Translations under genes and position numbers: made by a program
Origin: Clostridia bacterium
GTDB lineage: Bacteria; Bacillota; Dehalobacteriia; Dehalobacteriales; Dehalobacteriaceae
Assembly: GCA_012838175.1 (NCBI GenBank)
Contig: DUPU01000071.1
Coordinates: 1 to 39,902, forward strand
DNA length: 39,902 nucleotides
Reading direction: 5' to 3'
Notes under the pieces: generated by a model
Seen by the model: the letters and a program-made list of their open reading frames with translations, nothing else
Told to the model about the DNA's origin: nothing
The model's database searches: none
Shown: positions 22,110-30,000 of the stretch, piece by piece
Layout: the number at the start of each line of letters is the position of its first letter
How positions within the stretch are numbered: position 1 is the stretch's first letter

Positions 22110-22985
22110 CTAATATCTCCTCTCGTTTTCTATTACTTCTTTTAAAAAAATCAAATATCTTTGATGTCGGCCCGGGTCAATAAGGCCTTGTTTTACTGCT
22201 TCCTTTACGGCACAGTCCGGTTCCCGGTCATGAAGGCAGGAACTGAACCGGCACTGGAAGGCATACTCCTCCATTTCCGGGAAAAAAGAATCCAGCTCTT
22301 CTCGAGGCACAGGAGGCATCTCCAGGACAGAAAAGCCGGGGGTGTCCGCAACCAGTCCCCCAAAATCCAGTTCCAGCAGTTCCACATGACGGGTGGTATG
22401 CCTGCCCCGACCGATTTTTTGGCTGACTTCTCCCGTTTTTAAGCTTAGGCCCTGCTGGATGGCATTGAGAATACTGGATTTTCCCGCCCCGGAAGGTCCG
22501 GTAAACACAGATATCTTATCCTTTAAAATGAACCGAACCCGGTCTAAGCCAAGGCCGGTCTTCACGCTGCATGGTATCACCGGATATCCCGCTTTTTCAT
22601 AAATATTGACAATGTCGGAAACCGTCTCTTCCCCGGCCAAATCCGCTTTATTAAAGAATATCACCGCCGGCAAATCTTTTTGCCGGGCCATTAAAAGCAT
22701 CCGGTCCAGTAAAAGAAAATCCGGATCCGGATTTTTCAGGGCAAAGGTAATCAACACCTGTTCCACATTAGCAATGGCAGGCCTGTTTAATTCATTGGTA
22801 CGAGGAAGAATTTCCTCAATTACACCCTTATTTTCATCTAAAACCCGCACTAAGACCCGATCCCCAATGATAATACTTTGTTTTAGACGGCGAAACTTTC
22901 CCCTGAGAGAGCATTCCCATAATTTTTTTCCTATTTTAACATAGTAGAATCCACCGTAACCCTTAATAAGTATCCCTTCCTGCAT
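22110..22985 (-). CDS. rsgA: Small-subunit ribosome assembly GTPase RsgA
   Basis: A 291-residue circularly permuted GTPase that checks late 30S maturation. An N-terminal OB fold (~1-65) precedes the permuted G motifs: G4 FFNKADL, G1 [13 protein letters not shown] and G3 DTPGF. The C-terminal zinc domain supplies C, C, H, C in [14 protein letters not shown]. It lies between prkC (18 nt upstream) and rpe (1 nt downstream), the conserved prpC-prkC-rsgA order; in Bacillus RsgA is a PrkC substrate, so linked control is plausible. Confidence 0.96.
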
Positions 22986-23003: not shown

Positions 23004-24881
23004 TTATGGTACATTCTGGCTGAAAACCAATTCCGCATCCAAATAAATACCAATCTTACCATTCCCGTAGAAGGGAATGTCCTGTACTATGATATCTCCC
23101 GGTTGATGAATTTGGTCATATTCATAATGTTCCCCTTTTATATCGGATACTAAAATCCGCAACCGGTGTTCCTGGCCGTCATGGGGAATTTCATAGGTAA
23201 CCCGGGCAATTTGGGCCATGGGGCCCGGTCCGGAACTATACACCAGGTTAACGGTTTCTCCCTCCGGTATGAGTGTTTCCGGGACAATATCCTGACTAAT
23301 GACCTGCCAGGCAAAATACTCATCGCTTTCCTGTTCTTTGGCCGTACCTAATTTCAGACCATTCTCCGCCAAGGTTTTCTTGGCTTCTTCCAAAGTAGAT
23401 CCCACCAAATTAGGCATGGAAATGTATTTAGGCTCCCGACCCAGACTGACTACCACCGTCACTACAGAATTTTCAGGAATTTCTTTTCTTGCATCCGGGT
23501 TCTGGGAAATGACTATTCCCACCGGCACATTATCACTGTATTCCTCTACAATATCAATCTCTAAATTACTGTTATTAATCTCCACCTCAGCTTCCCGCCT
23601 GGTTTTTCCTACCAAATTAGGTACTCGGGTATTTTTTGGTCCCTCACTTACTAAAAGACCAACCACCCGGTTTTTTTTCACCAGCTGATTAGGAGCCACG
23701 GTTTGGGAAATTACATGGTCCTTCTTTACAGTACTACTAAAATTGTATTCTACGGTATATTTTAGTCCCGCCTCTTCCAATTCCGCCTTGGCTTCAATTA
23801 AGGGCTTTCCTTCCACATCAGGTACGGTTGTTTTTCCCACATTAAGGTAGCCGGCGAGCAGGGCATAACCGCCCCAGAGAATTAAGATAAAAAGCAGTAT
23901 TCCCGCTCCCAGCAATGCCCATTGAAAACCCGGTTTTAATCTTTTCTTCCGCCGGGGAGGAGCATCCTCATACCGGGATTCCCCCATTGACCGAAGGGTC
24001 GGTATTTCCACCGTATCCTCATTGGTTCCCCGGTCATTTGTAATCATGTTGATTTCATGGGCTTTGCCCTGATAAATCTTCTCCAGATCATAACGCATTT
24101 CCCGAGCCGAAGAGTAACGGGCCTCCGGGCTTTTCTCCATGGCCCGGAGGATGATATGGGAAAGCTCTTTTGGAATCTTCTGCACCAATTCGTTTGGAGG
24201 AACAGGTTCATTCTGAATATGCTGTAAAGCTATGGCGATAGGACTGTCTCCGGTAAAAGGCAGCTGTCCGGTAACCATTTCATATAAAACGGCGCCGGCG
24301 GAATACAAATCGGATTTAGAACCGATGGTAATTCCTTTGGCCTGTTCCGGAGAAATATAATGAACAGAACCAACGATGGTCCCGGTATAGGTCAAAGTTG
24401 TTTCGCTGGCCGCCCGGGCAATACCGAAATCAGTAACCTTAACCCGGCCTTGTTTGGTCAGCAGGATATTATGAGGTTTTATATCTCTATGCACAACGCC
24501 GTGCTCATGTGCATGTTCCAGGGCATCCAGAATCTGTATGGCGATGGGAACGGCTTCCTGTACCGGCAATTTGCCTTTATCCCTGATATACTCTTTAAGA
24601 TTCTGTCCTTCCACAAACTCCATTACTAAATAATGTAAACCTTCCTCAATACCCACGTCAAAAATACTGACAATATTAATATGAGAAAGACTGGCCACCG
24701 ATTGAGCTTCCCGGTGAAAACGTCGTACAAAATCTTCATCATGGGCATACTGGTCTCTTAAAACCTTAATGGTCACCAAACGATTCAAGAGAGTGTCCAG
24801 TCCTTTATAAACAACGGACATACCGCCGGAGCCCAGAATTTCTTGAATCTCATACCGGTTGTCGAATTTTTTACCGATCAC
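23004..24881 (-). CDS. prkC: PASTA-domain serine/threonine protein kinase
   Basis: A 625-residue membrane kinase sensing peptidoglycan fragments. The cytoplasmic Hanks-type domain (~1-270) has the glycine loop LGSGGMSVVY, catalytic lysine IKVL, HRDIKPHN, DFGIA and SPEQA. One transmembrane helix (~325-345) follows, then three PASTA repeats (starting VPDVEGK, VPNLVGK, MPNLVGS) and a distinctive ~75-residue C-terminal extension. The track begins at GTG 24890, which falls inside the Shine-Dalgarno region. GTG 24881, 8 nt after GGAGG, gives the usual start (M)IGKKFDNRYEI. It lies downstream of its antagonist phosphatase prpC. Confidence 0.95.
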   Translation of the reverse strand: MIGKKFDNRYEIQEILGSGGMSVVYKGLDTLLNRLVTIKVLRDQYAHDEDFVRRFHREAQSVASLSHINIVSIFDVGIEEGLHYLVMEFVEGQNLKEYIRDKGKLPVQEAVPIAIQILDALEHAHEHGVVHRDIKPHNILLTKQGRVKVTDFGIARAASETTLTYTGTIVGSVHYISPEQAKGITIGSKSDLYSAGAVLYEMVTGQLPFTGDSPIAIALQHIQNEPVPPNELVQKIPKELSHIILRAMEKSPEARYSSAREMRYDLEKIYQGKAHEINMITNDRGTNEDTVEIPTLRSMGESRYEDAPPRRKKRLKPGFQWALLGAGILLFILILWGGYALLAGYLNVGKTTVPDVEGKPLIEAKAELEEAGLKYTVEYNFSSTVKKDHVISQTVAPNQLVKKNRVVGLLVSEGPKNTRVPNLVGKTRREAEVEINNSNLEIDIVEEYSDNVPVGIVISQNPDARKEIPENSVVTVVVSLGREPKYISMPNLVGSTLEEAKKTLAENGLKLGTAKEQESDEYFAWQVISQDIVPETLIPEGETVNLVYSSGPGPMAQIARVTYEIPHDGQEHRLRILVSDIKGEHYEYDQIHQPGDIIVQDIPFYGNGKIGIYLDAELVFSQNVP

Positions 24882-24912
24882 CCTGTTCACCTCCCATATC
24901 AGACAGGAGAAA

Positions 24913-25623
24913 TTATTCGTTACTTACCAGAATCACCGTGATATTGTCGAACCCTCCCCGGGCCAAAGCCCGATTTACCAACTCCTGCACCGCCTTTTTC
25001 GTATCCTTTTCCCCGGTGACTACCGCAGCCATTTCTTCCCCACTGACCAGGTTAGACAAACCATCGGTACACAATAGAAAAGTATCTCCGGGCAAAACAT
25101 CATAATCAGCTATGTCAACTTCCACCAAGGCACTGCATCCCAAAGCCCTGGTCAATAGGTTTCTCTGGGGATGGTTCCTGGCCTGCTCTTCCGTTAGTCC
25201 TCCCTCCCGCACCAGTTCACCCACTAAGGAATGGTCCATGGTCAGGCTGGAAATCTTTCCTTCCCGAATTAAATAAACACGGCTGTCCCCCACATGGGAA
25301 ACATAAGCTTTATTCCCCACAATCCAAAGGGCGGTAAGAGTGGTGCCCATCCCGGAATACTCAGGCCGCTCCAAGGCTTCCTGATAAATCCGGTTGTTGG
25401 CTTGGTAAAAGGCATGACGCAGTGTATCAGACGGGGAATCATGGGAATCTGACGCCAATGCCTGCTTTAGCGTTTCTATGGCCAGGACACTGGCTACCTC
25501 TCCTGCCACGTAGCCCCCCATACCGTCGGCAACAACAAAAATTTGTTTATTAATATCGCTCCATGCAGCATCTTCATTGTTTTTTCGCACTAATCCCACA
25601 TGGGTGATTACCTCCGCGTGCAT
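24913..25623 (-). CDS. prpC: PP2C-family protein phosphatase
   Basis: A 236-residue metal-dependent Ser/Thr phosphatase reversing PrkC phosphorylation. Motifs in order: RKNNEDA, FVVADGMGGYVAGE, GMGTTLTAL, HVGDSRVYLI, LLCTDGLSNLV and GGFDNITVILV, with all metal-binding aspartates present. ATG start with GAGGTGAAAGC upstream. The gene keeps its normal place between rlmN and prkC, although the rlmN copy upstream is broken. Confidence 0.95.
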   Translation of the reverse strand: MHAEVITHVGLVRKNNEDAAWSDINKQIFVVADGMGGYVAGEVASVLAIETLKQALASDSHDSPSDTLRHAFYQANNRIYQEALERPEYSGMGTTLTALWIVGNKAYVSHVGDSRVYLIREGKISSLTMDHSLVGELVREGGLTEEQARNHPQRNLLTRALGCSALVEVDIADYDVLPGDTFLLCTDGLSNLVSGEEMAAVVTGEKDTKKAVQELVNRALARGGFDNITVILVSNE

Positions 25624-25709
25624 GCTTTCACCTCTTTATATTCACAAAATTGCCTGTTAAAGTTTATAAAAAAATAATAAAAATCCAATACATGAAATTT
25701 AAAAGTATA

Positions 25710-26161
25710 TTATTCGCCGGAGAGATTATTTTTTCCTCTAATTTTTCTTCTAAGTTGACCGCAGGCAGCATCAATTTCTCCCCCTTTTTCTTCCCGTACC
25801 AACCCATATTGCACCCGGCTTGGGTACTGACACAAACGGTATTTCGATTCCTGCTTTCTTCCCTCTCATAAGTCATGAGAACCGTTTCCACCATCTCCCC
25901 GTCCGGAAATTTAAGAAGAAATTTTACTGTATCTCCACCCTTTGACAGGGATTTGGCCACAAGTTCCGGCGCGGTAATAAAGCTATGCTCCCTTAGTATA
26001 TCTCGGATATTCCGGGGAATATTACCCATTTCATCAAAAGAAACAACCCCTTTGCCATGGACCCAATGGAAAATTTGCTTTGCCCGAAACCGGGGCAGGT
26101 TAAGTTTGTCTATCAAGTCCTCCATATCATTTAAATCAGCACCTAACAAATCCAGAAGCAT
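25710..26161 (-). pseudogene. rlmN: rlmN remnant: N- and C-terminal ends joined out of frame
   Basis: RlmN is a radical-SAM enzyme of ~345 residues that methylates 23S rRNA A2503 and tRNA. Here the first 120 residues are normal (LPRFRAKQIFHWVHGKG, then NTVCVSTQAGCNMG). At the radical-SAM cysteine motif, where C-x3-C-x2-C is expected, the frame continues as WYGKKKGEK and ends at 25664 without meaning. In the adjacent frame the same DNA reads VREEKGGEIDAACGQLRRKI up to TAA at 25710-25712. That is the true RlmN C-terminus, with its catalytic cysteine. About 200 codons in between, including two of three cluster cysteines, are missing. The gene cannot make an active enzyme. Either a genuine deletion or an assembly fault would explain it. 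Confidence 0.9.
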
Positions 26162-26167
26162 GATAAC

Positions 26168-27535
26168 TTATCCCTTCCTTCTCATCCGGGCCATAAATAA
26201 ACCGTCTGTGCCATGGATATGGGGCAAGAGCTGGATCATCCCGGATTGCATTGTTTCTTTATCCAAAGACAGTTCTGATATATCGGGAATCACATCCAAG
26301 GCAAAATCACCGTGACTTTCCAAAAACCACTTTACTACAGACTGGTTTTCTTCCCGGGTCAAGGTACAGGTGGAATAAACCAAAACGCCTCCCGGGCGGA
26401 GAGTTTTGGCGGCGGAACTTAAGATTTTCTTTTGGATGTCGGCTAAAACGTCAATATCCTGGGCTTCTTTTTTCCATCTGGCATCCGGCCTTCTTCTTAA
26501 AACCCCCAATCCGGAACAAGGAGCATCCACCAAACAAAAATCCGCCCATTGGTTTAAGGAGTCTGGAAGGTTGGCGGCATCTTCTTTTCTTGTTTCCACA
26601 ATGTTAATCCCTAAACGGGCACAGCTTTCTTCAATCAAAGCCAGTTTATGGGGATGAATGTCAAAAGCCTTAATCTCCCCTTCATTTTTCATCAACTGGG
26701 CAGCATGGGTAGTCTTCCCCCCCGGAGCGGCACAAGCATCCACCACCCTACTCCCCGGCCGGGGAGATAAAACATGGGTCACAATCATGGACCCTTCATC
26801 CTGCACCTGGAACAGTCCTTCCTGATATGCCGCCAAAGAGTCCAAGGAAACAATGCCTTCCAAAATAATACTTTCCGGTACATAACGGCCGGGAAAACAC
26901 CTTATTCCTTCTTTTTCCAGACGAAAAATCAATTCTTCCCGGGAAATTTTTAAGGTGTTGGTCCGAAGCGTCACCTGGGGCGAGGTGTTGTTCCAGGCAC
27001 AAAGGCGCAGGGTTTCTTCCCGGCCAAACTGATGCAGCCATCTTTCCACCAGCCAACGGGGATGAGAATAGAAAGAAGAAATATGTTCCAATGGATCCTG
27101 ATCCAGCAAAGGGTAGGTCAGACCTTCTTTTCCCCGGGCGACATTTCTCAAAACTCCGTTTACCAGCTTTACCGTACCCGCATGTCCATATTTTTTCGCC
27201 AGGTTGACAGACTCATTTACTGCCGCCCGGTCCGGTACCTTGTCCAAAAAAACAATCTGGTAAACCCCCATCCGGAGAATAAGGTGAATCCACACAGGCA
27301 AACTTTTTAACGGCTTTTTTATGTATAAACTTAAAATATAATCCAGAGCACCCTGCATGCGAATTGTGCCATAAACCAATTCCGTGATGAAGGACCGGTC
27401 CAAGGGGTTGAAGTCCTCCCTGTTTAAAACCTTGTTTAATTCCAAATTAGCATATGCATCTTTTTCAGAAACCCGGTACATAATGTTGAGGGCTGTCTCC
27501 CGGGGAGACTGCCCTTTTTTCACATTTCTATTCAT
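26168..27535 (-). CDS. rsmB: 16S rRNA m5C967 methyltransferase
   Basis: A 455-residue protein. The N-terminal NusB-like RNA-binding domain (~10-140) includes LDRSFITELVYGTIRMQGALDYIL. The SAM methyltransferase domain shows VVDACAAPGGKTTHAAQLM, the first cysteine motif VDAPCSGLGVLRRRPDARW and the catalytic motif LVYSTCTLTREEN. The track starts at TTG 27547, but ATG 27535 (MNRNVKKGQSP) follows GGGAGAAG at the right distance. It overlaps the stop of the zinc peptidase gene by 8 nt. The downstream rlmN remnant begins only 6 nt after it, so transcription probably continues into prpC-prkC. Confidence 0.95.
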   Translation of the reverse strand: MNRNVKKGQSPRETALNIMYRVSEKDAYANLELNKVLNREDFNPLDRSFITELVYGTIRMQGALDYILSLYIKKPLKSLPVWIHLILRMGVYQIVFLDKVPDRAAVNESVNLAKKYGHAGTVKLVNGVLRNVARGKEGLTYPLLDQDPLEHISSFYSHPRWLVERWLHQFGREETLRLCAWNNTSPQVTLRTNTLKISREELIFRLEKEGIRCFPGRYVPESIILEGIVSLDSLAAYQEGLFQVQDEGSMIVTHVLSPRPGSRVVDACAAPGGKTTHAAQLMKNEGEIKAFDIHPHKLALIEESCARLGINIVETRKEDAANLPDSLNQWADFCLVDAPCSGLGVLRRRPDARWKKEAQDIDVLADIQKKILSSAAKTLRPGGVLVYSTCTLTREENQSVVKWFLESHGDFALDVIPDISELSLDKETMQSGMIQLLPHIHGTDGLFMARMRRKG

Positions 27536-28217
27536 CACTTCTCCCAATTCCGGATATAATAATAAGACGTATTAGTTGAAGAATTCCCATTAATGCCGCT
27601 GCCACATAAGTAAGGGCTGCCGCATCCAATACCTTTTTTGTCTGGGGAATTTCCTCCCGGGTTAAATACCCGCCGCCTTCCAGTAAAGCCAGGGCTCGTC
27701 CGGAAGCATTGTATTCCACCGGCAAAGTCACCAACTGAAATAAAACCACAGCGGCAAAAGCGTAAACGCCGATACGAGCCAGACCCGGCAATCCCATAAT
27801 CAAACCTATAAGCAGCAGGATCCAAGCCGCATTGCTGCCAAACTGGGCCACCGGAACCAGGCTGGATCTAATGGCCAAGGGTGCATAGCCTTCATCATGC
27901 TGAATGGCATGACCGGCCTCGTGGGCAGCAACACCGATGGCAGCCAAAGAGCTGCTGTGATAAACATGTTGTGACAGTCGCAAAGCTTTAGCCCGGGGAT
28001 CATAATGGTCCGATAATTTCCCGGGAATTACCTCTACCCTGATATGATCCAAACCTTGTTGATTTAAGATGCGCCGGGCAGCTTGAGCGGCCGTCATCCC
28101 GCTTAAAGCCCCTACCCGGTTATATTTATCAAAGGTGGCCGTCACCTTATGCTGAGCCCAAGCTGCAATAATAATGCCCGGAATCAGTAAGATAAATGTC
28201 GGATCCCAAAAAAACAT
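27528..28217 (-). CDS. Membrane zinc metallopeptidase (YugP/Zn_peptidase_2)
   Basis: A 229-residue membrane protease. An N-terminal helix (LLIPGIIIAAWAQHKV) is followed by NRVGALSGMTAAQAARRIL, the soluble catalytic site GVAAHEAGHAIQHDEGYAP containing HEAGH, and two or three further transmembrane segments. This matches the YugP-like family, whose physiological substrate is not established. ATG start with GGGAGG upstream. Its 3' end overlaps rsmB by 8 nt, so it belongs to the fmt-DUF116-peptidase-rsmB run common in clostridia. Confidence 0.92.
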   Translation of the reverse strand: MFFWDPTFILLIPGIIIAAWAQHKVTATFDKYNRVGALSGMTAAQAARRILNQQGLDHIRVEVIPGKLSDHYDPRAKALRLSQHVYHSSSLAAIGVAAHEAGHAIQHDEGYAPLAIRSSLVPVAQFGSNAAWILLLIGLIMGLPGLARIGVYAFAAVVLFQLVTLPVEYNASGRALALLEGGGYLTREEIPQTKKVLDAAALTYVAAALMGILQLIRLIIISGIGRSDE

Positions 28218-28258: not shown

Positions 28259-29062
28259 TTACTTAGCAGCTTTCACATCCGCCAAGCCACACTTTTCTTC
28301 TCCATAATTTTTTAGGAAAAACCTGATCCCATCTTCCACCTGTTCCAAAGACACAGTGGTATTCAGGCAAGGTCCTTCCGGCCGCAAATTCAAGACACCT
28401 AATACCGGCAAAGGATTCACATCAATAATGCCGCTGGTTAAATCCCGTTCACAGGCAATGGCCACAATAGCCCGGGGATGATATTTTTCAATAAATTTTC
28501 GTGCTAAAGTACCTCCTGTAGCTACTACCAGGGAAACCCCATACTGATCGGCCAAATCCAACAGAGTATTCACACAGCACTCCCCGCACCGCCGGCAATT
28601 CCTTACATCAATGGTAATCTTATGAGGACAAGTGCTTTTCTGCAAACAATGGGGAGCCAAGATCATCACCTGGGACGGTGTTAAATTCAACCGATGGGTA
28701 TGAACCATCTGGTTGTTAACTTCAATAAAAGAACTTTTAATTTTGTTTTTATCTAAGCCTAATAAATGGCCAATACCCAAAGCCACCGGAAATAACAGGT
28801 TGGTGGCTATGCGCATGAAACCCTCCATAGAGGGAAATGACTTGGATTGATAAAGAGTTAGTAGCATTCCCGCAATTCCAAGTCCGATCATCACTACCAA
28901 ACCTAAAAGAAAACTTCCAAAGACCACCAGAAGAATGCGATAAAAAAACACCTCCCGGTTTACGGCCAAAAACCAAATCAAAACTACTAACCCAATAACA
29001 ATAAAGAGGCTGAGCAACAGCAGGCCGATAAAAAGCCGTTTTTTTATTCCTGTGCCCGTCAT
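28259..29062 (-). CDS. DUF116 domain membrane protein
   Basis: A 267-residue protein. Two N-terminal transmembrane helices (LFIGLLLLSLFIVIGLVVLI and ILLVVFGSFLLGLVVMIGLG) are followed by a DUF116 cytosolic domain with many conserved cysteines: HCLQKSTCPHKI, NCRRCGECC, AIACERDL and RPEGPCLN. The pattern suggests a metal or iron-sulfur site; function is unknown. The track's first 37 codons merely re-read the fmt gene. The real start is ATG 29062, which overlaps the fmt stop (ATGA). It is a standard clostridial companion of fmt and rsmB. Confidence 0.88.
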   Translation of the reverse strand: MTGTGIKKRLFIGLLLLSLFIVIGLVVLIWFLAVNREVFFYRILLVVFGSFLLGLVVMIGLGIAGMLLTLYQSKSFPSMEGFMRIATNLLFPVALGIGHLLGLDKNKIKSSFIEVNNQMVHTHRLNLTPSQVMILAPHCLQKSTCPHKITIDVRNCRRCGECCVNTLLDLADQYGVSLVVATGGTLARKFIEKYHPRAIVAIACERDLTSGIIDVNPLPVLGVLNLRPEGPCLNTTVSLEQVEDGIRFFLKNYGEEKCGLADVKAAK

Positions 29063-30000
29063 TCTAAAGCGCTGCCTTTCTGAAGCCTGGCGCCCCGGGC
29101 CCAAGCATCTCCGGCCATAGCTTGTTTGCCTTGAGGCTGGAGAACAGTTATCCATAAACTCCCCTGGCCGCATTTAACCTTAATCCCTTTACCGTGAACA
29201 GCTTCCAAAACCGTTCCCGGCCGCTCCTTCCTGCCCTCACTCTCTTCTGCAATTATTTTAGTTTCCCATATTTTCACTATTTTATTTTCAAATGTAGTAT
29301 ATGCCCCTGGCCAAGGATTCATACCACGGACTAAATTGTATACTTCTCGGCAATTTTTTGTCCAATCAATCCGCTCATGCTCCCGGGTTAAAAGAGGCGC
29401 ATAGGTAGCAAGGCGATGATCCTGTGCTTTTCGAGGGGCTTGGTGATGTTGAAGCAAATCCAGGGTTTCCCTAAGCAATTTTCCTCCCGTATCTGCTAAC
29501 CTGTCATGAATCATCCCGGTGGTATCCTCTGCCCCTATCGGGATGGTCTTTTTTAATATCATATCCCCGGTATCCATCCCCTCATCCATAAACATAGTGG
29601 TAACACCGGTTTCTGTTTCCCCATTGATAATAGCCCAATGAATGGGGGCAGCCCCCCGGTATTTTGGAAGAAGAGAAGCATGAACATTAATGCAGCCTAA
29701 AGGAGGCAAGGCTAACAATTCCTTTTTCAAAATCTGTCCAAAGGCCACTACCACCAGCACATCCGGCGCCAATGACCTAAGTTTTTCCACAGAATCCGGA
29801 TGATTAACATTCTCCGGCTGAAAAACCGGGATACCCTTACTTAGCGCCCGTTCCTTTACCGGCGTAAACTGAAGCTTTTTTCCTCTTCCTTTAGGCCTGT
29901 CCGGCTGGGTGACAACTCCCACCACCTCATAAGGGGATTGGAGCAGCTGCTCTAAACAAGGTAAAGCGAAATCCGGACTTCCCATAAATACTACCCGCAT
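29059..30000 (-). CDS. fmt: Methionyl-tRNA formyltransferase
   Basis: A 313-residue enzyme formylating initiator Met-tRNA with 10-formyl-tetrahydrofolate. Evidence: MRVVFMGSPDFALPCLEQLL, VVTQPDRPKGRG and the catalytic stretch INVHASLLPKYRGAAPIHWA, then TTMFMDEGMDTGDM, with a C-terminal OB domain beginning near VRGMNPWPGAYT. It lies downstream of def, so initiator formylation and its removal are encoded together. About 176 nt separate it from def, occupied at the def end by a repeat-like hairpin. It overlaps the DUF116 gene by 4 nt. Confidence 0.97.
   Translation of the reverse strand: MRVVFMGSPDFALPCLEQLLQSPYEVVGVVTQPDRPKGRGKKLQFTPVKERALSKGIPVFQPENVNHPDSVEKLRSLAPDVLVVVAFGQILKKELLALPPLGCINVHASLLPKYRGAAPIHWAIINGETETGVTTMFMDEGMDTGDMILKKTIPIGAEDTTGMIHDRLADTGGKLLRETLDLLQHHQAPRKAQDHRLATYAPLLTREHERIDWTKNCREVYNLVRGMNPWPGAYTTFENKIVKIWETKIIAEESEGRKERPGTVLEAVHGKGIKVKCGQGSLWITVLQPQGKQAMAGDAWARGARLQKGSALE

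Follow-up and report, generated by a model that had tools for sequence, protein, structure and literature searches.

The rlmN gene of the window, by which we mean the whole 39,902-nucleotide stretch of DNA that was analysed, has lost its middle 625 bases, so that no working enzyme can be made from it. The orthologous place is occupied by intact homologues in relatives, and the copy in the window carries a disrupting mutation. It is very probable that the locus is a recently formed rlmN pseudogene, created by a single internal deletion of ~625 bp and encoding a product that is unable to work.

The rlmN remnants and their junction

On the minus strand of the window the gene order is rsmB, a 165-codon open reading frame (ORF), a PP2C phosphatase, a PASTA kinase and rsgA (Table 1). 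As an earlier note on this DNA had maintained, the neighbouring operon genes are intact: none of rsmB, PP2C, pknB and rsgA is truncated, and they are collinear with their counterparts in same-family relatives. The alignment with relatives' rlmN that the note had recommended was carried out on three same-family genomes (G001, G002 and G003), and all three have the same gene order, with an intact RlmN of ~350-360 aa at the place of the ORF.

Table 1. Features of the rlmN region of the window.
Feature	Position	Strand	Basis
rsmB, upstream neighbour, intact	26168..27547	-	ORF list and comparison with relatives
Fused open frame, 165 codons (120 RlmN and 45 out of frame)	25664..26161	-	
RlmN 5' remnant, codons 1-120 and 2 bases: RlmN_N, VCVS cysteine, first CX3CX2C cysteine	25800..26161	-	
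Deletion junction ATGGGTTG^GTACGGG; 625 bp missing relative to three relatives	25799..25800	-	
RlmN 3' remnant of 29 codons in another frame (VREEKGGEIDAACGQLRRKIRGKNNLSGE), with the former stop	25710..25799	-	
PP2C-type phosphatase, downstream neighbour, intact	24913..25623	-	
pknB-type (PASTA) Ser/Thr kinase, intact	23004..24890	-	
rsgA, intact	22110..22985	-	

Residues 1-120 of the ORF (ending ..VCVSTQAGCNMG) share 58-69% identity with RlmN of G001, G002 and G003. Directly after residue 120, but in another frame, come the final residues of RlmN, VREEKGGEIDAACGQLRRK. The translation VREEKGGEIDAACGQLRRKIRGKNNLSGE, read one frame over at 25799-25713 and closed by a stop at 25712-25710, is the RlmN C-terminus and is 74-76% identical to that of same-family relatives over 19-21 residues. 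Compared with each of the three relatives the deletion amounts to 625 bp, that is, 208 codons and one base, and since 625 = 1 mod 3, the two ends of rlmN are joined out of frame. The earlier note had described an intact stretch of residues 1-120, a C-terminus in the neighbouring frame before a stop at 25710 and an out-of-frame join, all of which are borne out here; its 'some 200 codons' referred to a real deletion, and the size has to be corrected to 208 codons and one base, with 29 C-terminal codons retained. We place the junction at 25800/25799, an exact point that may shift by a few bases.

The domain content of the ORF is in keeping with the removal of the radical-SAM core that the note had proposed. 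RlmN_N is the only Pfam family matched, compared with RlmN_N and Radical_SAM in the relatives: the N-terminal accessory domain is present (PF21016, 55 bits versus a cut-off of 24), and the Pfam search of the ORF gave no match to PF04055 (Radical_SAM). With the RlmN model TIGR00048 the ORF scores 82.9 bits, below the curated cut-off of 290, and aligns to model positions 8-118 only. The CX3CX2C [4Fe-4S] motif reads CNMGWYG, with its first cysteine kept and the second and third gone; the deletion thereby takes two of the three FeS cysteines together with the whole radical-SAM / SAM-binding barrel. The C-terminal cysteine (DAACGQLR) is still encoded in the DNA, but in a frame that differs from that of the N-terminal part; with the VCVS cysteine it forms what we take to be the catalytic pair, as in E. 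coli RlmN. On sequence grounds, the 165-codon fused frame is predicted to be non-functional. Any product would keep the N-terminal accessory domain only, and would neither hold a [4Fe-4S] cluster nor bind SAM.

Elsewhere in the window, positions 29059-29173 are shared by a listed DUF116-like ORF (28259-29173) and the end of fmt (29059-30000). The real start of the DUF116-like ORF is probably MTGTGIKKRL, further down, and with that start the overlap would mostly disappear.

Origin and age of the deletion

The event would have been a single deletion of ~625 bp whose ends had little or no homology to each other; starting at codon 121, it would have taken out ~208 codons and left the two flanks fused out of frame. 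The N-terminal homology reaches the junction and the C-terminal homology begins immediately past it; we found no direct repeat at the junction, and in the relatives the two corresponding points differ in sequence. Collapse of a direct repeat by the assembler was rejected, as no repeat is shared at the junction. With no repeat common to both ends, a simple assembly collapse is unlikely; a strain mixture or a chimeric read is possible. The population would then have an intact rlmN, and the assembled version would stem from a chimeric read or from a rare strain with the deletion. Such an artefact or minority variant is in line with the fragmented assembly (2.41 Mb of draft sequence in 232 contigs, with a completeness of 96.2%) and with remnants that have not decayed, but we consider it unlikely, given that homology is continuous on both sides of the junction, that relatives have no repeat there, that the locus lies well within the 39.9-kb contig, and that the missing rlmN middle was found on no other contig, either by the family search or by a search with RlmN from one relative as the query (E up to 10). 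We infer that the deletion is present in living cells and is not a rare chimeric read.

The search for a second rlmN or cfr elsewhere, also proposed in the earlier note, yielded no such gene in the assembly (family profile search, 232 contigs), and tblastn with the whole RlmN of a relative matched only the two remnants. Besides the remnant, the family search of the assembly returned one weak match (C192), lying in an open frame of 467 aa that encodes a radical-SAM protein, probably MiaB-like, the name being presumptive. Similar weak matches, in frames of ~440-515 aa, occur in most relatives, and this one was rejected as a second rlmN or cfr because it is weak and has these counterparts. A second rlmN could lie in an assembly gap of the 96% complete draft.

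The 120 and 29 remaining rlmN codons contain zero stops. Under simulated neutral substitution, the probability of finding no stop was 0.48, 0.25 and 0.09 for 0.05, 0.1 and 0.2 substitutions per site, respectively. Identities between the N-terminal remnant and the relatives (58-69%) and among the relatives themselves (56-64%) are alike, and the neighbouring genes give similar values; relaxed selection on the remnant was thus not seen, its divergence being no faster than that of intact orthologues. Taken together, the lack of stops and the unaccelerated N-terminal divergence make the deletion look recent, and young relative to the family. When named genomes were scanned for close relatives, only distant ones turned up (RsmB at most 46% identical), and no relative closer than ~60-70% protein identity was found for dating the deletion.

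It is scarcely credible that the 165-codon product has been retained to do something else, such as binding RNA through its RlmN_N domain: RlmN_N is intact and the frame is open, but a young deletion would leave an open frame anyway, the 45 codons read out of frame gave no Pfam match, and no other genome searched has an rlmN match ending at the window's junction point.

rlmN in other genomes of the phylum

In the window's own genome and 60 relatives, rlmN was detected above the curated cut-off in 52 of the 61 genomes, and part of the absences are assembly gaps. In G016 and G020, which belong to one genus of the same class, PP2C begins within ~110 bp after rsmB, with no rlmN or remnant between. 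The same operon place is cleanly empty in these two genomes, and the loss of rlmN is therefore tolerated there. The short rsmB-PP2C gaps (G016:C11:17975-18083, L046; G020:C19:47366-47460, L045) share a similar stretch, GGTAAACTTGACAAC..GCTGTTACTATTAT, which looks like a promoter (TTGACA / TATTAT-like). Three further genomes (G008, G019 and G037) have no rlmN, but also no full rsmB or close PP2C match, and are uninformative; their operon probably falls in assembly gaps.

A phylum sample, consisting of the window's own genome and 99 others that are each at least 97% complete, contained rlmN above the cut-off in 94 of 100 genomes. At E 1e-15 five of the 100 lacked a match, among them the single-contig genome G102. 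Both G102 and its family mate G066 (family f31, same phylum) have rsmB, and neither rlmN (E 1e-15) nor a PP2C gene was found in them; this lineage seems to have lost both. G090 and G129 are uninformative, with rsmB and PP2C on separate contigs. Other partial rlmN matches occur in G021, G031 and G042 (61-genome search) and in G070 and G103 (phylum sample), and their extents differ from that in the window. Two full-length rlmN-like genes each are present in G045, G063, G099 and G130 of the phylum sample and in G026 of the 61-genome search.

Overall, up to a few per cent of the genomes sampled lack rlmN, and loss of the gene recurs in this phylum. The further idea that loss is both recurrent and selected in the group, the window representing a fresh deletion and the same-class lineage a clean excision, appears quite improbable to us.

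Significance and comparison with known systems

RlmN makes m2A at 23S A2503 and tRNA A37 (PMC10336011). If the window's rlmN is a pseudogene, as we favour, the cell would be without m2A at 23S rRNA position 2503 and tRNA position 37, and the organism has presumably lost this methylation. An rlmN knock-out of Enterococcus faecalis has been made, and its proteome was changed (PMC10336011). In Mycobacterium tuberculosis lineage 4.10 an rlmN frameshift is nearly fixed and has been linked to a small rise in the linezolid MIC (PMC13158455); a natural rlmN null is thus already published and not new. The earlier note had singled out a natural null in a conserved operon as worth confirming. The deletion and the loss of the core stand, but the importance was overstated: rlmN is dispensable, nulls have been published, and the gene is absent elsewhere in the phylum. 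We read the locus as a plain loss-of-function pseudogene that opens no new mechanism. It adds one more natural rlmN null, an apparently young example in a lineage keeping the neighbouring genes, fits the known fact that RlmN is dispensable, and cautions against assuming m2A2503 and m2A37 in all members of the group.

Compared with canonical RlmN (TIGR00048), the window keeps the N-terminal 120 and the last 29 residues as well as the order rsmB-rlmN-PP2C-pknB-rsgA, but it is without ~208 middle codons, its frame is broken, and it reaches 82.9 bits versus the cut-off of 290. With M. tuberculosis lineage 4.10 it has in common a natural, lineage-borne predicted rlmN null (PMC13158455); the lesion there is a frameshift at codon 176, in contrast to a 625-bp deletion from codon 121 in the window, and the organisms are unrelated. 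Further parallels are genomes of the same class (G016 and G020) and of the same phylum (G102 and G066) that have no rlmN, in G016 and G020 at the same operon place. Whereas nothing of the gene is left between rsmB and PP2C in G016 and G020, the window retains its remnants.
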